Assembly: GCA_016787725.1 (NCBI GenBank)
Contig: JAEUTZ010000016.1
Span: 338,217-402,216, forward strand
From: Cyclobacteriaceae bacterium
Lineage (GTDB): Bacteria; Bacteroidota; Bacteroidia; Cytophagales; Cyclobacteriaceae
Direction: 5' to 3'
DNA: 64,000 nt
The notes under the pieces were generated by a model. The model ran no database searches. It had not been told where the DNA came from and was given only the letters and a program-made list of their open reading frames with translations. The translations under genes and the position numbers were made by a program. How positions within the stretch are numbered: position 1 is the first letter of the stretch; each line of letters starts with the position of its first letter. Positions 14,133 to 25,939 of this stretch are shown in pieces.

Positions 14133-14630
14133 ATGGCGTTATTGGAAAAGAAAATGGTAATAAAGAAGTCTACCTTGCCGGGTGCCGGCAAAGGACTCTT
14201 CACAAAAGTATTCATCCCCAAAGGAACCCGCATTGTGGAATACAAAGGCGAAGTTGTCACGTGGAAAGAAGTTGAAAAAATGGCGGACGACCGCAATGGA
14301 TATGTCTTTTTCTTCAATAACCTATATTGCATTGACGCCTGGAAAACAAAAAAAGGGATCGCCCATTATGCGAATGATGCAAAAGGCATTGTGCGGGTAA
14401 AGGGAATAACCAATAATTCTGAATATGTAACGGAAAAAAAGCGCTGTTATATTGAGGCCACCAAAGATATTCCGGCCGGCTCTGAAATTCTTGTTGGCTA
14501 TGGAGCAGACTATTGGCAGGTGATCCGGTACAACATTCGATTAGAACAACGGAATAGAGAAAAAGCGGGTCGAATAGCCAGGACGGAATTACCCCATCAA
14601 AAAGCGGCCAAGCGACAAAAGAAATCCTGA
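14133..14630 (+). CDS. Small SET-domain protein
   Basis: A 165-residue protein consisting essentially of one SET domain, the fold of lysine methyltransferases. Visible motifs are STLPGAGKGLFTK near the N-terminus (SAM-binding side), AHYANDAKG at the position of the usual NHS-C motif, and EILVGYGADYW at the end. The canonical NHSC sequence is replaced by ANDAKG, so catalytic activity is not certain. A basic tail (AAKRQKKS) follows. The gene converges with the lipoprotein gene, with 10 bp between the stops. Its protein target is unknown. Confidence 0.8.
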   Translation: MALLEKKMVIKKSTLPGAGKGLFTKVFIPKGTRIVEYKGEVVTWKEVEKMADDRNGYVFFFNNLYCIDAWKTKKGIAHYANDAKGIVRVKGITNNSEYVTEKKRCYIEATKDIPAGSEILVGYGADYWQVIRYNIRLEQRNREKAGRIARTELPHQKAAKRQKKS

Positions 14631-15117: not shown

Positions 15118-15248
15118 TAATTAAGGGGTGATGATTGCTATAAAAATGGGCTAACAAGGGTTAGTTATAACTGATTTTTTGTAAAAAATAGGGAGCTTCT
15201 TTGCAGATGCCGATTTTTTCATTTTTCTTGGATGCACATTTGAACGAC

Positions 15249-15326
15249 ATGACGAACAACCGATTTTATTTCTTTTACTTTTTTTATCAATCCCGCGCGG
15301 GACTTGAGATTAAATCGGTTTGTTAA
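15249..15326 (+). CDS. Phe/Tyr-rich leader peptide of the aromatic operon
   Basis: A 25-codon open reading frame, ATG 15249 to TAA 15326. Codons 6-13 encode FYFFYFFY: five Phe and three Tyr codons in a row (15264-15287). It lies directly before a terminator (15350-15384) and the prephenate dehydratase gene. This is the classical form of a leader peptide for ribosome-mediated attenuation, with amino acids that match the end products of the operon. Not annotated by gene length alone, but composition, position and the flanking alternative RNA structures all agree. No purine-rich ribosome site is evident, as is usual for this phylum. Confidence 0.85.
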   Translation: MTNNRFYFFYFFYQSRAGLEIKSVC

Positions 15327-15363
15327 CTAAAAAATAAACGAAGAAACTCAGAAAGTCCCCCGC
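15255..15363 (+). promoter_or_regulatory. Pause and antiterminator structures of the Phe/Tyr attenuator
   Basis: Two mutually dependent pairings can be drawn. (1) 15255-15266 pairs with 15312-15324 (12 bp, one bulged T); its 5' arm precedes and just enters the Phe/Tyr codons and would be covered by a stalled ribosome. (2) 15297-15308 (GCGGGACTTGAG) can pair with 15347-15363 (CTCAGAAAGTCCCCCGC) with small bulges, sequestering the left arm of the terminator. A small palindrome, TCCCGCGCGGGA, sits at 15291-15302. Stalling would therefore favour pairing 2 and read-through. The pairings are read from sequence; the energetics were not computed. Confidence 0.7.
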
Positions 15364-15384
15364 AAAACGGGGGACTTTCTTTTT
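15350..15384 (+). terminator. Attenuator terminator before the aromatic operon
   Basis: A 13-bp stem (15350-15362 with 15368-15380) with a 5-base loop is followed by T residues to 15384, only nine bases before the ATG of the prephenate dehydratase gene. A terminator in this position must be conditional for the operon to be expressed. Confidence 0.92.
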
Positions 15385-15393
15385 GACAGGATT

Positions 15394-16236
15394 ATGACCA
15401 AAAAGAAGAAACCAACGATTGCCATTCAGGGTATCGCTACCAGCTTTCATGAAGTAGCTGCGATGCAATACTTTCAGAAGCCCATCCAGACGATCGAGTG
15501 CCTTACCTTTCATGCATTGTGCGAATCGCTGAAAAATGGAGAATCGGATTTTGCTGTCATGGCCATTGAGAACTCGATTGCAGGCAGCATTTTGCCCAAC
15601 TACTTTCTATTGCAGGAATACCATTTCTCAATCATCGGTGAAGTATACTTACCCATTCACATGCACCTATTGGCATTGCCTGGCGTCAGGTTGAGTGAGA
15701 TTAAAACCATTGAATCACATCCGATGGCCATCAGGCAATGTTCAGATTACCTTTACAAGTTGAACGGTGTTCAAATTATGGAGAGTGAGGACACGGCCCT
15801 CTCTGCACGAAAGGTAAAAGAGCAAAAACTGAAGACAACGGGAGCCATTGCCAATGAATATGCAGCAAAAAAGTTTGGACTGCAGATTTTAGAGAAGCGA
15901 ATTGAAACGCATAAGAAGAACTTCACCCGGTTCCTGATTTTAACCCGCAAGTCAAAAGATAACATCGAAAGCAACAAAGCTTCGTTGTGTTTTGAAGTTG
16001 CCAATGAGGTAGGGAGCCTGGCGGAAGCGTTAATGACGTTCAAAAATAACAGCATTAACCTTTCTAAAATCCAATCGATACCCATTATCGGAAAGCCGAG
16101 TGAATATTCCATTCACATCGATGTAGAGTGGCGTAAACGGAAAAGTTATGATCAGGCCATACAGGCGGTTTTGCGGCAAGTAAAGAACCTGAACATTTTA
16201 GGTGAGTATAAAAAAGCGAAAATTGAATACGTATAG
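15394..16236 (+). CDS. pheA: Prephenate dehydratase
   Basis: Converts prephenate to phenylpyruvate in phenylalanine synthesis. The 280-residue protein has an N-terminal dehydratase domain with ATSFHEVAAMQYF, MAIENSIAGSI and the catalytic TRF motif at residues 178-180, and a C-terminal ACT domain from about residue 200. There is no chorismate mutase domain; that activity is fused to the DAHP synthase at the end of the operon. In the ACT domain the usual Phe-binding ESRP sequence is QSIP (227-230), and the GALV region reads VGSLAEAL, so feedback inhibition by Phe may be altered. First structural gene behind the attenuator. Confidence 0.92.
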   Translation: MTKKKKPTIAIQGIATSFHEVAAMQYFQKPIQTIECLTFHALCESLKNGESDFAVMAIENSIAGSILPNYFLLQEYHFSIIGEVYLPIHMHLLALPGVRLSEIKTIESHPMAIRQCSDYLYKLNGVQIMESEDTALSARKVKEQKLKTTGAIANEYAAKKFGLQILEKRIETHKKNFTRFLILTRKSKDNIESNKASLCFEVANEVGSLAEALMTFKNNSINLSKIQSIPIIGKPSEYSIHIDVEWRKRKSYDQAIQAVLRQVKNLNILGEYKKAKIEYV

Positions 16237-16238
16237 TG

Positions 16239-17432
16239 ATGATAAAAACAGCCAACAGAATTGAGCGAGTAGAGGAGTATTACTTCAGTAAGAAGCTGGC
16301 AGAAGTGCGGGGTTTAGACACGCCCGAGTTTCCGGTAATCAATCTTGGAATCGGCAGCCCGGACCTTGCACCTACGTCAAAAACCATCGCGGCATTGATT
16401 ACTACCGCACAAAAGGAGAATAGTCATGGTTACCAAAGCTATAAAGGTATACCTGCGTTGCGGCAGGCAATTGGAAACTTTTATCAGAACACATACAAAG
16501 TTGGGCTCAATCCAGAAACCGAGATTCTCCCGCTCATGGGTTCCAAGGAGGGCATCATGCACATTACACTCGCCTTTGTTAATGAAGGTGAGGAGGTATT
16601 GATCCCAAATCCAGGGTATCCTACCTATGCTTCCGTGGCCAACCTGGTGGGGGCTAAGGTAAGCACCTATGCATTAAAGGAGTCGCTGGATTGGGGCATT
16701 GATATTGAGGAGTTGAAACGCAGGGATTTATCACATGTGAAAATCATGTGGGTGAATTTTCCACACATGCCGACAGGGCGCGTGGCTTCATCGGCAGAAT
16801 TGAAAGAATTGGTAGATCTTGCCCGTGCCAATAATTTCCTGATTGTTAATGATAATCCGTATTCACTCATTTTGAATGATGCGCCCATTAGCATTCTTGC
16901 AATAGCAGGGGCATCAGAGGTAGCCTTGGAATTGAACTCCCTTAGTAAATCACACAACCTCGCTGGCTGGCGTATTGGTTGGGTGGCCGGTAAGAAGGAA
17001 TACATTGATTCCGTACTGCGTGTAAAAAGTAATATGGATTCGGGTATGTTTCTTGGACTGCAGCACGCGGCTGTGGAGGCCCTTCAGAATGGACCGGAGT
17101 GGTTCCATGATTTAAATGCTGTCTATAGAAAGCGCAGGGCAGCTGCAAGTAAGATATTGGATTCATTGGGATGTAACTATTCTGATAAACAATCCGGACT
17201 TTTTAGTTGGGCAAAAGTACCCGATCGGGTGCGCGATGTAGAAAAGTGGATTGATGAGATCCTATACGAGACCCATGTGTTTATTACTCCGGGCTTTATT
17301 TTTGGCGATGCGGGGAAGCGACACATTCGGATTTCCTTGTGTGCTCCCGAAGAAAAATTTCTGGAAGCAAATACCCGGATCGCAAAATTTTTTAAGAGCA
17401 AATCAGTATTGGCAAACCTGCGTGTACTATGA
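16239..17432 (+). CDS. PLP-dependent aminotransferase class I/II, aromatic operon
   Basis: Fold-type I aminotransferase of 397 residues. The PLP lysine is K237 in the segment SLSKSHNLAGWRIGW; NPGYPTY and the region around VNFPHMPTGR are also typical. In this operon it most plausibly transaminates phenylpyruvate and 4-hydroxyphenylpyruvate (or prephenate) to finish Phe and Tyr synthesis, but substrate specificity cannot be read directly. ATG at 16239 is preferred; a GTG at 16236 overlapping the pheA stop is an alternative. The 3' end overlaps tyrA by four bases (ATGA). Confidence 0.88.
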   Translation: MIKTANRIERVEEYYFSKKLAEVRGLDTPEFPVINLGIGSPDLAPTSKTIAALITTAQKENSHGYQSYKGIPALRQAIGNFYQNTYKVGLNPETEILPLMGSKEGIMHITLAFVNEGEEVLIPNPGYPTYASVANLVGAKVSTYALKESLDWGIDIEELKRRDLSHVKIMWVNFPHMPTGRVASSAELKELVDLARANNFLIVNDNPYSLILNDAPISILAIAGASEVALELNSLSKSHNLAGWRIGWVAGKKEYIDSVLRVKSNMDSGMFLGLQHAAVEALQNGPEWFHDLNAVYRKRRAAASKILDSLGCNYSDKQSGLFSWAKVPDRVRDVEKWIDEILYETHVFITPGFIFGDAGKRHIRISLCAPEEKFLEANTRIAKFFKSKSVLANLRVL

Positions 17433-18328
17433 AGGCCACCGTAATTGGATTAGGACTTATTGGGGGCTCAATCGCACTGGGGTTGCGCAAGGCTGGTCTC
17501 ACAAAAGAGATCCTTGGGGTGGATGTTAATCCGGGTCATGGAATTAAAGCGGTGGAATTAGGACTGGTTGATAAAATCGTAACGGAAGATGTTGCCCTGG
17601 CTACCTCGGATTTGATTGTACTATCCATTCCAGTAAATGCATTGAATGCTTTTCTACCTGCCGTGCTGGATGCCATTAAGAAGGATGCCGTAGTGATCGA
17701 TGCAGGTTCTACGAAAGCGGCCATTTGCAAGTCAGTGGCAAACCACCCTAAACGCGCTCAATTTGTAGCGGCCCACCCGATTGCCGGAACTGAAAATTCT
17801 GGTCCACAAGCAGCATTTCATGGCTTGTTCAAAGGTAAGACCAATATCATATGTGAAGCTGGCAAGTCCTCCATAGACGCATTGAAGGTAGCCATGCAGA
17901 TTTTTGATGCTCTGGAAATGAAAACCATTTTCATGGAAGCAGAAGAGCACGACCGACATGTAGCCTATGTATCGCACCTCTCGCACGTAAGTTCCTTCCT
18001 GCTCGGTCAAACTGTTCTGGACATCGAAAAAGATGAGAAGAATATTTTTGATCTGGCCGGTAGTGGCTTTGCTTCTACCGTTCGATTGGCAAAAAGTTCA
18101 CCAGATATGTGGACTCCAATCTTTGAGCAAAATGTTGAATACCTGAGCCAGGCCTTGTTGGAATACATCATGCACTTGCAAAAGTTTCATTATCACCTGA
18201 TGAAGCACGACACAAAAGAAATCCATCGCATTATGTCAATGGCCAATGAAATTCGCAGGGTATTGGACCAACATTCCGATCAACAAACTCAACCCGATTC
18301 TAAAAAACCTGAACCAACGTTAAACTAA
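17429..18328 (+). CDS. tyrA: Prephenate dehydrogenase
   Basis: NAD(P)-dependent oxidative decarboxylation of prephenate to 4-hydroxyphenylpyruvate in tyrosine synthesis. The N-terminal Rossmann motif GLGLIGGS is at residues 7-14; AAHPIAGTENSG and the helix containing YVSHLSHVSSFLL are typical of the family. 299 residues, no ACT or chorismate mutase domain. Translationally coupled to the aminotransferase by an ATGA overlap; the C-terminal tail is polar and Pro/Gln-rich. Confidence 0.92.
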   Translation: MKATVIGLGLIGGSIALGLRKAGLTKEILGVDVNPGHGIKAVELGLVDKIVTEDVALATSDLIVLSIPVNALNAFLPAVLDAIKKDAVVIDAGSTKAAICKSVANHPKRAQFVAAHPIAGTENSGPQAAFHGLFKGKTNIICEAGKSSIDALKVAMQIFDALEMKTIFMEAEEHDRHVAYVSHLSHVSSFLLGQTVLDIEKDEKNIFDLAGSGFASTVRLAKSSPDMWTPIFEQNVEYLSQALLEYIMHLQKFHYHLMKHDTKEIHRIMSMANEIRRVLDQHSDQQTQPDSKKPEPTLN

Positions 18329-18359: not shown

Positions 18360-19463
18360 ATGACAAAGAAAGGATTACAGCTCGAGCCGATTTCTTCCTG
18401 GATGAAGGTAAATCGCCCGATTATCATTAGCGGACCTTGCAGTGCCGAAACGGAAGAGCAAACCGTAGCCACGGCCAAGCAAGTGGCAGCGACCGGAAAA
18501 GTTCATGCCTTGCGAGCCGGAATTTGGAAACCCCGCACCCGGCCGGGTCAATATGAGGGTGCCGGTAATGAAGGATTGAAGTGGCTGATCAGTGCCAAGA
18601 AGGAGACGGGATTGCCGGTTACAACTGAAGTGGCGAATGCGGCCCACGTGGAAGCCTGTTTAAAAGCGGGAGTCGACTTTTTGTGGGTGGGTGCCCGCAC
18701 CACGGTAAATCCTTTTTCAGTTCAGGAAGTGGCCGATGCATTGAAGGGAGTGGATATACCCGTCCTTGTAAAAAACCCAATTAACCCGGATGTGGAATTG
18801 TGGTTAGGTGCGTTGGAGCGTTTAAACAAAGCCGGCATTACGAAACTGGCTGCCATTCACCGCGGGTTCTCTTCCTTTGAAAAGGGACCCTTCCGGAACG
18901 CACCCATGTGGGATTTAGCCATTGAATTGAAAACACGCGTACCGGAATTGGATATGATTTGCGACCCCAGCCACATTGCCGGAACCCGTGATCTTATTTC
19001 CCTCATCTCTCAGAAAGCACTTGACCTTGATATGGCTGGTTTGATGATTGAGAGCCACATCAACCCCGATGCCGCCTGGAGTGATGCCAAGCAGCAAGTG
19101 ACCCCGGCTGTGCTGAGTAAAATTATCAGCGACCTGGTGGTACGGACCCAAACGGTTGAAAACAAAAGCTTCAAGGATACCCTTAGTATTTTGCGTGAGC
19201 AGATCGACCACCTTGATGACGAAATCATGCAGAAACTTTCTCAACGTATGAAAATCTCTGAGAAGATTGGACAGTATAAAAAAGAAAATAACGTAACCAT
19301 CCTTCAGGTCAATCGCTGGGAAGAAATTATACAAACCCGCATTGCCTTGTGTAAGGCGATGGGGTTGAGTGAAGAGTTTACCACAGAGCTGCTAAAGCTG
19401 ATTCATAACGAATCTATTCAGATTCAGACCAAGGTGATGAACCGGGTTGCAGAACGGGTATAA
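18360..19463 (+). CDS. Bifunctional DAHP synthase / chorismate mutase
   Basis: The N-terminal part (about residues 15-260) is a DAHP synthase of the short KDSA-like class: SGPCSAE (24-30), GIWKPRTRPGQYEG, KNPINPD, HRGFSS and CDPSHIAGTR. The C-terminal part (from about residue 270) is an AroQ-type chorismate mutase with LREQIDHLDDEIMQKLSQRM. It therefore supplies the first shikimate-pathway step and the chorismate-to-prephenate step from one polypeptide, the latter feeding pheA and tyrA of the same operon. Such fusions let the mutase domain act as an allosteric sensor of prephenate or chorismate in characterised relatives. Last gene of the operon. Confidence 0.92.
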   Translation: MTKKGLQLEPISSWMKVNRPIIISGPCSAETEEQTVATAKQVAATGKVHALRAGIWKPRTRPGQYEGAGNEGLKWLISAKKETGLPVTTEVANAAHVEACLKAGVDFLWVGARTTVNPFSVQEVADALKGVDIPVLVKNPINPDVELWLGALERLNKAGITKLAAIHRGFSSFEKGPFRNAPMWDLAIELKTRVPELDMICDPSHIAGTRDLISLISQKALDLDMAGLMIESHINPDAAWSDAKQQVTPAVLSKIISDLVVRTQTVENKSFKDTLSILREQIDHLDDEIMQKLSQRMKISEKIGQYKKENNVTILQVNRWEEIIQTRIALCKAMGLSEEFTTELLKLIHNESIQIQTKVMNRVAERV

Positions 19464-20380: not shown

Positions 20381-23300
20381 ATGAAAAAAGTAATCATCGG
20401 GGTAATGGCCGTAGGGGTTGCGGCTTTAGCCATTTTCTATTACACGACAAGCAAGAGCGCTAAAACCTTTAACTCCGCAATCAACCCGGCTTTTGGCGAA
20501 TACATTACATCCTATACAGCCGGGGTAATCAGCTCGAATTCACCGATTCGCATGGTCCTTTCGCAAGACGCGGTGGATTCGCTTGCCATTGGTGCGGAGA
20601 CTACGGTAAAGCTTTTTGAGTTGAGCCCAGCTGTGAAGGGGGTCACAATTTGGTTGGATAAACGCACGGTTGAGTTCAGACCGGACGCCCGGTTGACTTC
20701 CGGTCAGATTTATCAAGTCAATTTCAATCTGGCGCGTTTAATGGAAGTTCCAAAAGCCCTGAGCACATTCGAATACACCCTTCAGGTAATCCCTCAAAAT
20801 TTTGAAGTGACCGTAGAGAACATTAAACCGTATGTGAAAACAGATTTGAAGCGGCAAAAAATTGAAGGGGTATTATTAACAGCCGACTATGCTGATGGCG
20901 CGGTTATCGAGAAAATGCTTAATGCCCAGCAGGACGGCAATTCCTTAAAAGTAAATTGGACCCACACTTCTGAGGGGAAACAACACTCGTTTATTGTGGA
21001 AGAAGTAGCCCGTAAGGAAGCCGCCAGCAAAGTGAGCCTGACTTTTCAAGGCGCCCACCTCGGGGTTGAACGTGATGATGATCGGGAGGTAGAGATTCCG
21101 GCCCTGGGTGATTTTAAAGTTACCCATGTGCGCGTAGTGCAGGGAAGCAGCCAACATGTGGTGGTTCAGTTTTCCGATCCGCTCAATGAAACACAAAATC
21201 TGGAAGGCCTGGTGACCATTGCTGAACTTGCTAATCTTGATTTTGAAATTAAAGATAATGAGGTACGCGTATTTCCCTCCGTTCGCCAAACAGGTTCGCG
21301 AACCATTACCGTTGAAGCCGGTGTAAGAAATATCCTAAACTACAAAATGAGTGATGCATCCACTTTTGATATTGCTTTTGAGCAAGTGCTTCCGGCTGTT
21401 CGGTTTACGGGGAAGGGAAATGTTCTACCGTCCAGCGATGGTTTGATCATGCCGTTTGAGGCGGTGAATCTGAAGTCGGTGGATGTGCAGATCATCAAGG
21501 TGTATGAAAGCAATATGTTGCAGTTTTTACAGGTTAACGATTTAAGTGGCAACCAGGAACTAAGAAGAGTAGGCAAGCCGGTGTTGAATAAGACGGTTTC
21601 CCTTGAAAATACCGGGGTAACTGATTTGGGAAAGTGGAATCGATTCACCCTGGATCTGGCAACTCTTATCAATGCTGAACCAGGGGCAATTTATCAGGTA
21701 CGCATTGGCTTTAAGCGATCGTACCTGGCCTATGTGTGCGAAGAAGACGCTGAGTCGGGAACCACAAACTCACAGCTGGCTCTTGAGGAGGAAAGTTGGG
21801 ATGAAGGTGAAAATGAAAACAGTTATTGGGATTCCTACGATGACTACTATTATGGTGAGGACTATGAGTGGAAGCAACGCGATAATCCATGCCATTCCTC
21901 GTACTACACCGGTAATCGCAATATCAAACGAAATGTAATTGCATCCGACCTTGGCTTGTTGGCTAAGCGCGGCAGTGATGGAAATACATTGGTTGTTGTG
22001 AATGACTTGAAGACCACCCAGCCCCTTTCTGGTGTTCAGCTGGAGTTATACGACTTTCAACAGCAATTAATTGGAACAGCTTCAACCGGTACAGATGGTA
22101 AGGCGCTCATTTCTTCAAAGCAAAATCCATTTGTTGTCATTGCCAAAAACGGCCCGCAGCGTGGCTATCTTAAATTGCAGGATGGGGAGTCACTTTCGTT
22201 GAGCAACTTCAACATTGGGGGTGAATTTGTACGTAAAGGATTAAAAGGGTTTTTATATGGTGAACGGGGAGTTTGGCGGCCGGGTGATTCGCTTTACCTG
22301 AGTTTTATTCTGGAGGATAAAAATAAACTTTTACCGGCATCGCATCCAGTTGTTTTTGAATTGCAGAATCCTCAAGGTCTGGTCACTGCCCGACTGGTGC
22401 GTTCCAACTCCGAAAATGGATTTTACAAATTTGCAACCGCAACGAGTCATGATGCGCCTACCGGCAATTGGATGGGCCGCGTAAAAGTAGGCGGGACGGA
22501 ATTTACACAGCCGCTCAAGATTGAAATGGTAAAGCCCAATCGGCTTAAAATCAATCTTGATTTTGGTGTTGACAAATTAAAGGGAGCCAGTAATACTACC
22601 ACCGGTAACTTAAAAGTTAACTGGCTGCACGGGGCACCCGGCAAAAACCTGCGTACACAATTCGATGTCCTGCTTACCCCGGGCACAACTCAGTTTGATC
22701 AATATAAGGAATACGTCTTTGATAATCCGGCCATCGAGTTTTATTCAGAATCCCAAACCATTTTTGACGGGTATACAGATGCCGAAGGCCGCGCAATAGT
22801 AAATGCCAACCTCGAGGTGACTACGGAAGCGCCAGCCACTCTCAATGCGATTTTCCGGGGCAAGGTCTATGAGGAAAGTGGCAACTTCAGCATTGATCGA
22901 TTTAGCATTCCGTATTATCCCTACCGTTCAATGGTGGGTGTTCGATTGCCCTTAGGCGACAAAGCTCGCGGTATGTTATTAACCGACACCACCCATCAGG
23001 TAGATGTGGTTACCATTGATCCTGATGGTAATCCGTTGTCAAAGGCCATTGAATTATCTATTTATAAAATCGAATGGAGTTGGTGGTGGGATAGCTCGCA
23101 AGGATCAGTGAATTTTATGAGTGGGAATTATTCGCAACCCATATCCACCGGCCGAATCCGTACAGTCAATGGCAAGGGAACCTGGAACTTTAAGATTAAA
23201 TATCCTGAGTGGGGAAGATTTTATGTTAAGGCATATGATCCGGAGTCGGGCCACAGTACCGGAAAAATTGTATACATCGATTGGCCGGGCTGGGCAGGCC

Positions 23301-25939
23301 GTGCACGCAAGGAAGGGGAAGGGGCTACGATGTTATCGTTCTCTTCCGACAAACCCATCTATAACATCGGAGAAAAGGCTAATCTGGTCATTCCCGGAAG
23401 CGATCAGGGTCGTGCGTTGATCAGTGTCGAAAACGGCAGCCGGGTGTTGCAAACCTATTGGCTAGAAACACAAAAAGGTGACAATCCTTTCACGTTCGAG
23501 CTCACCAAAGACATGACCCCGAATGTGTTTGTTAATATCACCTTGCTGCAGCCCCATGCTCAGACTTCCAACGATTTACCCATGCGTATGTATGGTGTGA
23601 TCCCGATTCAGGTCGAAGATCCGGAAACCCATTTGGAACCAATAATTACCATGCCTGATGTATTGGAGCCTGGCAAGGAAGTAGTGATTAAAGTATCTGA
23701 GCAATCGAAACGCAAGATGACCTATACCCTGGCGATGGTGGATGAGGGGTTGCTCGATCTTACCCGATTTAAAACTCCGGATGCATGGTCCCGGTTTTAC
23801 GCACGGGAAGCATTGGGTGTAAAAACCTGGGATTTATATGATGAGGTAATGGGCTCATTTGGCGGACGGTTGGAAAGACTATTGGCGCTGGGCGGTGATG
23901 CTGAACTTGCCGCGAAGGAAGATGATGCAAAGGCAAACCGCTTTAAACCGGTAGTGAAGTTCTTTGGACCTATTACCCTGGATGGCACCAGTCACGAGCA
24001 TAGGTTCATCATGCCCCAATACATTGGTTCGGTGCGCACGATGGTGATTGCCGGATTTGAAGGTGCGTATGGTAAAACCGAGAAGGCAACCCCCGTACGG
24101 AAGCCATTGATGGTGCTGGCCACGTTGCCACGCGTGCTGGGACCGGAAGAACAGGTAAAACTGCCCATCACGCTGTTCAAGAGCGAAAAGAATATCAACA
24201 ACGTAAAAGTGGAGATAAAAGTAAGTGGACCTGTGGCGATGACGGCAGAAACCTCTCGTACCGTTTCGATGGGGGATGAATCGGACTTAACATTGGACTT
24301 TGATCTTTCGGTAAAGAGCGAAACCGGAATTGCCAAAATTCAGGTTACGGCTACTTCGGGCAGTTACACCGCTACCGATGAAATTGAAATGGAGGTACGC
24401 AACCCGAACCCACCGATTACACGGGTGCAGGATGTTGTGCTTGAAGCAGGAAAAAGCTGGAGTACCTCAGTCACTCCTTTTGGTGTGACTGGTACAAACA
24501 GGGCTACTCTGGAAGTTTCGAGTTTGCCTCCGGTTAACCTGGGGCAACGCATGCGCTACCTGCTCCAGTATCCTTACGGATGCATTGAGCAAACTACTTC
24601 TTCTGTATTTCCACAATTATATCTCCACCAGGTGAAATCACTGACGGAGGATGAAAAAAACATGATTCAGCGCAATGTGAAGGCAGGGGTAGAACGGTTG
24701 AAAACTTTCATCAACCGCGATGGAGGGTTCAGCTATTGGCCGGGTTATGAAGATTCGGATAGCTGGGGCACCACGTATGCCGGGCATTTTCTGATCGAAG
24801 CGGAAGCGAAGGGGTACTACATCCCCAATGATATGGTGAAGCGATGGAAAAAATATCAGAAAAATAAAGCCCAGAGCTGGCGCAAAAACCAGGAGTATAG
24901 TAGCAGCGAGTTAATACAAGCGTATCGTTTATACACGTTGGCCCTTGCAGGGGAGGCGGAGTTAGGCGCGATGAACCGCTTACGCGAACAAGTGTTGCCC
25001 GCAACAGCCGCCTGGATGTTGGCGGCAGCCTATGTTAAAGCGGGCCAGCCCGAGGCTGCCAGAAAACTGATTGAGAAGTTACCGATTCAAGTCAAGCCGT
25101 ATCAGGAAATGGCTTATTCTTACGGTTCTGATTTACGAGATCGTGCGATCATCCTGGAAACTTTGCTGTTGCTTAATGACCGTACAACTGGGTTTGAACT
25201 CGTGAAGGCATTGTCGGAAGCATTAAGTAACCCCAATTATTGGATGAGCACACAAACCCTGGCATGGAGTTTAAAATCGGTGGGTGCTTATGCAGGTGGT
25301 GAAAAAGGTGATTTGAAGTTTACGTATACATACAACGGCAAGGAAATTACTGCGAATACCGAGATGACGATTGCCCAGGTGAACTTACCGATGGATGGAA
25401 TGAAAGCCGGTAACCTGAAGGTAGTGAGCAACAGTAAGGGTGCGCTTTTTGCCCGCATTATACAGGAAGGCGTTCCGGCACGGGGCGAGGAAGAGGACAG
25501 CGAAAAAAATTTGAGCATTTCAGTAAGTTATACTGATTCGGATGGGGCAGTTGTTGATCCGGTCCGGTTGGAGCAAGGAACAGAATTTGTAGCAACGGTT
25601 ACCATTTACAATCCAGGTTTTCGTGGCATTTATAAGAACCTCGCGATCAACCAGATTTTTCCTTCGGGTTGGGAGATTAACAACCTGCGTCTTACCGGAG
25701 ATGAGACTGCGGGAATCACAGGGGATGTTCCAACCTACCAGGATATCCGCGATGACCGGGTGTATACCTACTTTGACTTGGGTGCCAATCAACGTAAAAC
25801 CTTTAAGGTGTTGCTAACAGCAAGTTATGCCGGATCGTACTATTTGCCAGCTGTAAGTTGCGAAGCCATGTATGACAACAGCGTATATGCACGCAAAAAG
25901 GGACGGGTAGTGGAGGTAGTGAAACGGTTGGTGCAATAA
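20381..25939 (+). CDS. Large bacterial alpha-2-macroglobulin family protein
   Basis: An 1852-residue bacterial alpha-2-macroglobulin, a periplasmic or surface protease trap. The N-terminus has one hydrophobic segment (residues 3-23) without a lipobox cysteine, so it is either anchored by it or cleaved. MG-type domains are recognisable, for example ERGVWRPGDSLYLSF, and the thioester motif CIEQ is intact with the reactive cysteine at C1401, followed by the alpha-alpha-toroid region (FINRDGGFSYWPG). A very acidic, Tyr-rich insertion (around residues 450-500) is unusual. Many bacterial members are next to pbpC; here the PBP1C gene is about 10 kb downstream. The 149 bp upstream gap shows no clear promoter. 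Confidence 0.9.
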   Translation: MKKVIIGVMAVGVAALAIFYYTTSKSAKTFNSAINPAFGEYITSYTAGVISSNSPIRMVLSQDAVDSLAIGAETTVKLFELSPAVKGVTIWLDKRTVEFRPDARLTSGQIYQVNFNLARLMEVPKALSTFEYTLQVIPQNFEVTVENIKPYVKTDLKRQKIEGVLLTADYADGAVIEKMLNAQQDGNSLKVNWTHTSEGKQHSFIVEEVARKEAASKVSLTFQGAHLGVERDDDREVEIPALGDFKVTHVRVVQGSSQHVVVQFSDPLNETQNLEGLVTIAELANLDFEIKDNEVRVFPSVRQTGSRTITVEAGVRNILNYKMSDASTFDIAFEQVLPAVRFTGKGNVLPSSDGLIMPFEAVNLKSVDVQIIKVYESNMLQFLQVNDLSGNQELRRVGKPVLNKTVSLENTGVTDLGKWNRFTLDLATLINAEPGAIYQVRIGFKRSYLAYVCEEDAESGTTNSQLALEEESWDEGENENSYWDSYDDYYYGEDYEWKQRDNPCHSSYYTGNRNIKRNVIASDLGLLAKRGSDGNTLVVVNDLKTTQPLSGVQLELYDFQQQLIGTASTGTDGKALISSKQNPFVVIAKNGPQRGYLKLQDGESLSLSNFNIGGEFVRKGLKGFLYGERGVWRPGDSLYLSFILEDKNKLLPASHPVVFELQNPQGLVTARLVRSNSENGFYKFATATSHDAPTGNWMGRVKVGGTEFTQPLKIEMVKPNRLKINLDFGVDKLKGASNTTTGNLKVNWLHGAPGKNLRTQFDVLLTPGTTQFDQYKEYVFDNPAIEFYSESQTIFDGYTDAEGRAIVNANLEVTTEAPATLNAIFRGKVYEESGNFSIDRFSIPYYPYRSMVGVRLPLGDKARGMLLTDTTHQVDVVTIDPDGNPLSKAIELSIYKIEWSWWWDSSQGSVNFMSGNYSQPISTGRIRTVNGKGTWNFKIKYPEWGRFYVKAYDPESGHSTGKIVYIDWPGWAGRARKEGEGATMLSFSSDKPIYNIGEKANLVIPGSDQGRALISVENGSRVLQTYWLETQKGDNPFTFELTKDMTPNVFVNITLLQPHAQTSNDLPMRMYGVIPIQVEDPETHLEPIITMPDVLEPGKEVVIKVSEQSKRKMTYTLAMVDEGLLDLTRFKTPDAWSRFYAREALGVKTWDLYDEVMGSFGGRLERLLALGGDAELAAKEDDAKANRFKPVVKFFGPITLDGTSHEHRFIMPQYIGSVRTMVIAGFEGAYGKTEKATPVRKPLMVLATLPRVLGPEEQVKLPITLFKSEKNINNVKVEIKVSGPVAMTAETSRTVSMGDESDLTLDFDLSVKSETGIAKIQVTATSGSYTATDEIEMEVRNPNPPITRVQDVVLEAGKSWSTSVTPFGVTGTNRATLEVSSLPPVNLGQRMRYLLQYPYGCIEQTTSSVFPQLYLHQVKSLTEDEKNMIQRNVKAGVERLKTFINRDGGFSYWPGYEDSDSWGTTYAGHFLIEAEAKGYYIPNDMVKRWKKYQKNKAQSWRKNQEYSSSELIQAYRLYTLALAGEAELGAMNRLREQVLPATAAWMLAAAYVKAGQPEAARKLIEKLPIQVKPYQEMAYSYGSDLRDRAIILETLLLLNDRTTGFELVKALSEALSNPNYWMSTQTLAWSLKSVGAYAGGEKGDLKFTYTYNGKEITANTEMTIAQVNLPMDGMKAGNLKVVSNSKGALFARIIQEGVPARGEEEDSEKNLSISVSYTDSDGAVVDPVRLEQGTEFVATVTIYNPGFRGIYKNLAINQIFPSGWEINNLRLTGDETAGITGDVPTYQDIRDDRVYTYFDLGANQRKTFKVLLTASYAGSYYLPAVSCEAMYDNSVYARKKGRVVEVVKRLVQ

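Follow-up and report, generated by a model that had tools for sequence, protein, structure and literature searches.

A Phe/Tyr leader peptide and a probable transcription attenuator upstream of the aromatic amino acid operon of a Cyclobacteriaceae bacterium

The aromatic amino acid operon of a Cyclobacteriaceae bacterium, which consists of pheA, an aminotransferase gene, tyrA, and a gene for a DAHP synthase fused to chorismate mutase, is very probably under the control of a transcription attenuator that works through a ribosome translating a leader ORF with both Phe and Tyr control codons. This reading is based on the sequence of a window of 64,000 nt (the whole stretch of DNA that was analyzed) and on comparison with related genomes. 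The leader and the terminator that follows it would most likely allow the bacterium to switch on these genes when Phe or Tyr runs short. An attenuator had been proposed for this region in the initial annotation, and as a whole that proposal is supported: its parts, their conservation, and the co-variation of two helices (1:2 and 2:3) are evident from the sequences and the statistics presented below.

Results

The leader ORF and the operon

An ORF of 25 codons with the uninterrupted run FYFFYFFY had been reported upstream of pheA, and direct reading of the sequence confirmed both. The ORF, the control codons, and the genes downstream are located as follows.

15249..15326, + strand: leader ORF, 25 codons, peptide MTNNRFYFFYFFYQSRAGLEIKSVC, with the ATG at 15249 and the stop codon TAA at 15324-15326 (from sequence)
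15264..15287, + strand: eight consecutive Phe/Tyr control codons, TTT TAT TTC TTT TAC TTT TTT TAT, that is, FYFFYFFY (from sequence)
15394..16236, + strand: pheA, prephenate dehydratase (PF00800)
16236..17432, + strand: class I/II aminotransferase gene (PF00155), one-base overlap with pheA
17429..18328, + strand: tyrA, prephenate dehydrogenase (NF006307, above cut-off), four-base overlap with the aminotransferase gene
18360..19463, + strand: DAHP synthase fused to a type II chorismate mutase domain (PF00793, PF01817), 31 bases past tyrA

The four genes form a tight operon. The short ORF in front of them, which is predicted from its sequence to be translated, contains many codons for the amino acids that this operon serves to make. 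A run of seven TWY codons has four matches at three places in the genome, compared to four matches for a reversed control pattern, and the two further places fall within ORFs of 119 and 309 aa. Since the reversed pattern is equally common, the rarity of the codon run was dropped as evidence; the run alone is not rare, and its significance comes from its position and conservation.

Just 5' of the leader ATG (15200-15249 in the window), many members of the genus contain TTTG-like and TTTCTT-like elements about 20 nt apart, as judged by eye; in L010, L013, L014, L026, and L027, also by eye, the second element, TTTCTT or TTTATT, is separated from the ATG by only about 7 nt. Read against the Bacteroidota promoter consensus, these elements would put the leader ORF right at the start of the mRNA or very close to it. 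The neighboring ORFs on either side resemble, by eye, a SET-domain protein (14133-14630, 165 aa) and an alpha-2-macroglobulin-like protein (20381-25939, 1852 aa).

Terminator, antiterminator, and first hairpin

Folding and duplex prediction placed the following RNA elements between the leader ATG and pheA.

15261..15272, + strand: region 1, 5' arm of the first (1:2) hairpin, overlapping the Arg-Phe-Tyr-Phe codons (fold; 1:2 co-variation)
15306..15317, + strand: 3' arm of the first hairpin (fold; 1:2 co-variation)
15291..15302, + strand: small inner hairpin, 15291-15294 with 15299-15302, which would hold the antiterminator 5' arm (fold)
15299..15308, + strand: region 2, antiterminator 5' arm, GGGACTTGAG, to which 15295-15297 contributes three more pairs (duplex prediction, permutation test)
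15347..15363, + strand: region 3, antiterminator 3' arm, which includes the left arm of the terminator (duplex prediction)
15350..15384, + strand: intrinsic terminator, 13 bp stem 15350-15362 / 15368-15380 with a T tail to 15384 (folding)

A strong intrinsic terminator is thus present between the leader ORF and the first structural gene. It had been claimed nine bases 5' of pheA, and indeed nine bases separate the end of its T tail (15384) from the pheA ATG (15394); the distance from the stop codon of the leader to the terminator is 23 nt, and the stem has a folding energy of -23.5 kcal/mol. Over its 201 nt, the RNA of 15200-15400, the folding of which had been suggested as a check, has a more stable fold than every one of 200 dinucleotide-shuffled versions (z -3.07).

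The 5' arm of the antiterminator mimics the right arm of the terminator, and its pairing with the left arm (15299-15308 : 15347-15359) would take the terminator apart. A pairing of 15297-15308 with 15347-15363 that hides the left arm had been put forward, and duplex prediction recovered it at matching coordinates: the duplex 15295-15297 + 15299-15308 : 15347-15363 has an energy of -19.5 kcal/mol, with none of 100 shuffles as good, and 15295-15363 folds at -20.5 kcal/mol. A second alternative pairing, likewise put forward, was found by folding as the first hairpin, 15261-15272 : 15306-15317, with an energy of -11.2 kcal/mol including the enclosed inner hairpin (-5.2 kcal/mol for the region 15288-15306). 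By its fold and its co-variation, this first hairpin competes with the antiterminator and overlaps the control codons.

Across 69 non-redundant leaders, the distance from the last Phe/Tyr codon to the start of the contiguous antiterminator helix has a median of 10 nt (range 6-24), which is about as far as a ribosome extends beyond its A site. The stop codon of these leaders is found between 6 nt upstream and 31 nt downstream of the point where the helix starts.

Conservation of the leader

The comparison with relatives, also suggested as a check, revealed that the Phe/Tyr codon runs, the terminator, and the antiterminator pairs are kept and that the pairs co-vary. Within the genus, 35 relatives were searched, of which 31 had a match to pheA and 4 had none. 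With the window's own genome included, the Phe/Tyr leader, defined as a short ORF with at least six Phe/Tyr in ten codons, is present in 32 of 32 pheA-bearing genomes. Thirty loci of this genus set were recovered by the search and two (L035 and L036) were fetched separately; G099 and G207, which belong to the same genus and carry pheA, were left out. In L012, the leader is present but in a broken frame, and its pheA is frame-broken as well, which looks like an assembly error; because both are broken, this locus was left out of the pairing and codon counts. The pheA of G019 (L036) is also broken.

A wider set was obtained by a scan with a ten-member PheA alignment, from which the best 80 of 587 relatives, those nearest to the query, were taken. 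By their labels, 76 of the 80 are Bacteroidota (the exceptions are L061, L107, L109, and L124), and at least eight of the 80 loci lie on the same contigs as the genus set (for example, L048, L051, L052, L055, L057, L058, and L060). Two loci, L063 and L115, had too little upstream DNA and were left out, so that 78 were counted. At the threshold of 6/10, the leader was found in 52 of these 78 loci from the best 80 of 587 relatives, mostly in Bacteroidota, and was not found in the other 26. A stricter threshold of at least seven Phe/Tyr in ten codons retained 49 of the 78. The background at this stricter threshold is low: such a run was found in 1 of 1431 stretches drawn at random from these loci and in none of 780 dinucleotide-shuffled sequences. 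Among regions upstream of long ORFs other than pheA, it was found in 2 of 389 (an initial 396, less 7 that turned out to be pheA with an earlier start codon). Judged from these sequence counts, the conservation of the leader is not due to chance.

The two sets overlap in some contigs and, when pooled, comprise 82 leaders; for the pairing tests, identical arm pairs were merged to give 69, whereas the codon count was made on 81 leaders with duplicates not merged. A revised finder placed a terminator after 80 of the 81 leaders, although the stems of L078 and L079 are doubtful, and none was placed for L123. Both Phe and Tyr are present in all 81 leaders, with means of 4.1 Phe and 3.4 Tyr in the densest ten codons, and Trp occurs within those ten codons in 22 of the 81, bearing in mind that these leaders are related sequences, including some duplicate contigs, and not independent cases.

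The constant presence of Tyr codons bears on the best of the alternatives, that is, a Phe-only attenuator like the enterobacterial pheL, in which the Tyr codons would be filler that drifted from Phe by a single base. The first gene downstream is pheA, TTT and TAT differ in one base only, and the Rfam model RF01859 (Phe_leader), which we take to be an enterobacterial family, can be aligned to the window over all of its 125 positions. With 43.5 bits (E 2.1e-6 for 221 bases), however, that alignment falls short of the family's gathering score of 55, and neither the window nor 20 relatives has a match to this family at gathering. Mere filler is difficult to reconcile with the retention of Tyr in every leader counted, nor would it account for the presence of tyrA in the operon, and we consider a Phe-only attenuator improbable.

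Several individual leaders deserve mention. A leader of the Phe/Tyr type is found in L116 (Flavobacterium sp.). In Pedobacter and similar bacteria (L062, L064, L065, L070, L076, L080, L089), the leader contains TYWFGYFYYF or a sequence close to it, so that Trp is also within the control stretch, and these leaders often end with SRD or SRG at the antiterminator arm. L061 lies on a contig labeled Legionellaceae, but its PheA is 56% identical to that of the window and its Phe/Tyr leader is of the Pedobacter type; the simplest reading is a Bacteroidota contig in the wrong bin.

Co-variation of the two helices

In the 69 non-redundant loci, the antiterminator arms pair better with their own partners (mean -18.9 kcal/mol) than with swapped ones (-14.7 kcal/mol), and none of 10000 permutations was as low, in a test that takes no account of the relatedness among loci. 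In 34 loci outside of the genus set, the corresponding values are -19.2 and -14.6 kcal/mol. The controls shifted slightly as well, both for reversed sequences (-11.0 vs -10.1 kcal/mol, P 0.0004; outside the genus set P 0.043) and for complemented sequences (-13.5 vs -12.4 kcal/mol, no permutation as low), so that part of the co-variation signal may be due to shared composition. Altogether, 67 loci have a core of at least six pairs, of which 33 have the commonest core, 14 differ from it on one side, and up to 20 differ on both sides; the last number is an upper bound, because about six of these cores look like a shifted register of the common helix. Clear changes on both sides include GGGGCT:AGCCCC, GAGGCT:AGCCTC, TGGAAC:GTTCCG, and ACGAGT:ACTCGT. 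The pairing of the antiterminator with the left arm of the terminator is thus conserved and co-varies. For helix 1:2, the own partner gives -14.1 kcal/mol and swapped partners -10.7 kcal/mol; the reversed control is not significant over all 69 loci (P 0.17), but has a P of 0.007 within the genus set.

These data also speak to a second alternative, by which the short ORF would be a small protein gene with a function of its own and the hairpin its ordinary 3' terminator. The ORF is conserved, and a terminator 23 nt past its stop codon would suit such a gene. Outside of the Phe/Tyr run, however, the peptide varies between groups (RFYFFYFFYQS..., TYWFGYFYYFSKSRD, TFFYFYFYFFYEGKSEAVCM), the RNA pairing co-varies while the peptide differs, and a separate gene would have no need of an antiterminator. 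The location of pheA downstream of the leader was not counted against this explanation because it follows from the design of the search. Even so, an independent small protein gene appears very unlikely.

Stalling model and proposed mechanism

The effect of a ribosome on the leader was modeled by blocking the RNA codon by codon, on the assumption that the ribosome covers 13 nt on the 5' side and 12 nt on the 3' side of the codon in its A site. For each position, the probability of pairing between regions 2 and 3, at a stage when the terminator's right arm has yet to be transcribed, was calculated under equilibrium folding. In the window, this probability is 0.99 with the ribosome on the first six Phe/Tyr codons and 0.89 and 0.67 on the following two. 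It is 0.00 on the next nine codons, from Gln to Lys, and returns to 0.39-0.98 at Ser, Val, Cys, and the stop codon (0.98 at the stop). Averaged over 80 leaders, the probability is 0.84 on the Phe/Tyr codons and 0.30 at the stop codon, and the former value exceeds the latter in 74 of the 80. These probabilities suggest that a stall on either amino acid would open the operon and that passing the run would close it.

The equilibrium model also favors the antiterminator on RNA free of ribosomes (0.99 in the window, mean 0.77 over 80 loci), a value that the Phe/Tyr stall exceeds in only 34 of the 80 leaders, and it does not predict default termination on ribosome-free RNA. Hence, at equilibrium, the stalled and the pass-over states match what attenuation needs, whereas the ribosome-free state and, in the window, the stop-codon state do not. 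Because both of the latter favor the antiterminator, default termination would need kinetic folding or timing. We infer that the decision is kinetic, with the first hairpin preceding the synthesis of region 3 and a well-fed ribosome located over region 2 as the polymerase reaches the terminator.

For the ribosome-mediated attenuator with a dual leader peptide, we infer a coupling of transcription and translation, a sequence of steps, and a response to each of the two amino acids, as follows. The ribosome on the leader would sense charged tRNA-Phe and tRNA-Tyr, and if either became scarce, it would stall on the codons at 15264-15287. The stalled ribosome would break the first hairpin and free GGGACTTGAG (15299-15308), which could then pair with CTCAGAAAGTCCC (15347-15359). 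With the left arm of the terminator occupied in this way, RNA polymerase would read through into pheA. When both charged tRNAs are plentiful, the ribosome would move on over 15288-15317 and cover the antiterminator 5' arm, and the terminator at 15350-15384 would form.

Distribution in Cytophagales and tandem leaders

To these sets, pheA upstream stretches from 54 further Cytophagales genomes (beyond L035 and L036) were added. The leader is present in 15 of 15 genomes of family f13, for which Hymenobacter polaris (L118) is the named relative by likeness of the leader, in 2 of 2 genomes of genus g23, which belongs to the family of the window, and in 3 of 3 genomes of family f2. In f16, three genomes just reach the threshold with a weak candidate, MLFAFYYFYQS or a similar sequence; in the remaining genomes of the 54, no stretch reached 6/10. 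Among the genomes fetched from other genera of the window's family, the leader was not found in 8 of 10. These eight, from four other genera (L149-L155 and L172), have a match to pheA, which in L172 is weak and short, and no leader in the 700 nt upstream, which may reflect either a loss or another mode of control. Thus, the distribution is patchy at the family level, and control by the leader is not universal, given its absence from the 26 of 78 loci in the wider set, from the 8 of 10 other-genus genomes, and from most other Cytophagales families sampled.

Six of the 15 f13 genomes (L033, L133, L134, L138, L139, and L140) have two Phe/Tyr leaders in series, which are located about 150-330 nt upstream of pheA and are followed, by eye, by terminator-like hairpins. 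An automatic check found a stem for 11 of the 12 tandem leaders, and several of these stems are short or were probably put in the wrong place. Only 3 of 11 antiterminators are convincing, in the sense that no more than 5 of 200 shuffles were equally good. The candidate tandem leaders are a lead, not a result; if the reading is true, they would act as two successive gates. A known case of two short ORFs in one leader is that of the tandem attenuators of Salmonella mgtCBR, with different signals and genes according to the accessible part of the report (PMC3641672); this comparison bears only on the f13 leaders and not on the window.

Genes downstream of the leader

The initial annotation had regarded a mixed Phe/Tyr sensor as suited to an operon containing both pheA and tyrA. 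This holds for the window, where tyrA is present, but not generally: within about 4 kb downstream of the 52 leader-bearing loci of the wider set, a tyrA-like gene was found in 25 and a DAHP synthase gene in 49, and in 25 of the 52 only the DAHP synthase gene was found. The commoner partner of the leader is thus DAHP synthase rather than tyrA. One of the remaining loci, L122, has an aminotransferase and a DAHP synthase gene behind the leader, and L123 has too little sequence to judge. For comparison, among the 26 loci that had sufficient upstream DNA and no leader, at least one of the three genes lies nearby in 12. Two of the loci with DAHP synthase only, L066 and L067, were read further downstream, and their operons go on with ORFs that resemble aroA (EPSP synthase) and aroC (chorismate synthase), as judged from the start sequences.

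Because these genes belong to the branch point and to the common pathway, a general sensor of the aromatic supply fits better than a strict pheA-plus-tyrA logic. Every leader counted mixes Phe and Tyr, some also contain Trp, and branch-point and common-pathway genes follow, which led us to the broader reading of a pan-aromatic leader-peptide sensor over much of Bacteroidota, with the f13 tandem leaders as two gates in a row, apparently with one terminator each. We give this broader reading about even chances.

Discussion

Comparison with known systems

The leader of enterobacterial pheA has a Phe-rich short ORF, competing hairpins, and an intrinsic terminator just 5' of pheA; pheL has Phe codons and is not known to have Tyr codons. 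The window element resembles these enterobacterial attenuators (pheA and pheST) in all three respects and differs from pheL in having Tyr besides Phe codons and an operon that includes tyrA and DAHP synthase. That one leader reports on several amino acids of one operon is known from enterobacterial thrL (Thr/Ile) and ilvL (Leu/Val/Ile), with which the window shares the mixed-codon principle, the amino acids being different; the comparison is one of principle, not of sequence.

A third alternative, by which a T-box, a riboswitch, or an RNA-binding regulator would work the same terminator in response to a metabolite or a protein and the ORF would be secondary, draws on the fact that the structured 5' regions of aromatic operons in Firmicutes can be T-boxes. 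It is highly improbable, since no Rfam family reached its cut-off in the window, no T-box model reached gathering in the window and none of the 22 matches listed for 15150-15420 at the loose threshold of E <=5 is to a T-box, 20 relatives gave only two matches at cut-off (both to Flavo-1 in L116, away from the leader), and the control codons are placed where stalling would free the antiterminator. A link to BTnc231 (RF04180, a Bacteroides sRNA) was rejected as well: the score was 23.9 bits compared to a cut-off of 80.4, and a class-wide search had matches in 8 of 119 genomes, one of them over the cut-off, with no pheA or Phe/Tyr leader at 7 of the 8 matched loci (L178 was left out).

A comparative study by Vitreschak and others (2004, FEMS Microbiology Letters) reportedly includes attenuators of Bacteroidetes/Chlorobi. 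The literature searched, which lay mostly outside subscription journals, yielded no report of a Bacteroidota pheA preceded by a Phe/Tyr leader. In the accessible texts, attenuation in this phylum is hinted at, not worked out. For Flavobacteriaceae, a conserved and structured 5' element upstream of pheA without an Rfam family has been reported, along with strong indications that amino acid operons of Flavobacterium psychrophilum are attenuated through leader peptides (PMC9723704); gene and phylum are the same as here, and the accessible text gives no leader sequence, Phe/Tyr content, or pairing model. In Bacteroides thetaiotaomicron, sORFs reminiscent of leader peptides have been described (PMC7366714). 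Furthermore, a survey of five genomes, none of them from Bacteroidota, tied upstream ORFs with notable Phe and Tyr to shikimate metabolism genes, a shared Phe/Tyr content for which the accessible portion gives no mechanism (PMC6429828).

The enterobacterial logic that had been invoked for the window is supported, and the mixed Phe/Tyr sensor is less novel than had been hoped: mixed-codon attenuation is known, and, as far as the accessible text goes, a pheA 5' element has been reported in Flavobacteriaceae (PMC9723704). From the comparison with Rfam and the literature, the window contains an element of an already known type, in which the mix of codons is uncommon and which is spread more widely than expected. 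The unusual points are this spread and the possible tandem copies.

Implications

The results provide a concrete account of how many Bacteroidota may regulate the synthesis of aromatic amino acids. Since the leader is so widespread, a study in one tractable species, such as a Flavobacterium or a Pedobacter, would be informative for a large group of bacteria. The dual sensor also raises the question of how one leader weighs the shortage of two amino acids.

Two further candidates were found in the genome of the window, with their terminators read by eye. One is a His-rich ORF, MSNTQNIHGHHHHATRISGRSLF, that precedes hisG (L173, contig C22) and is followed by a terminator-like hairpin. The other is a Trp-containing ORF, MNRITTYTAGWWHKSNFDW, likewise followed by such a hairpin, in front of the best match to trpE (L174, contig C23), which scores below the cut-off of that model. 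Thus, classic attenuation seems to be used elsewhere in this organism.
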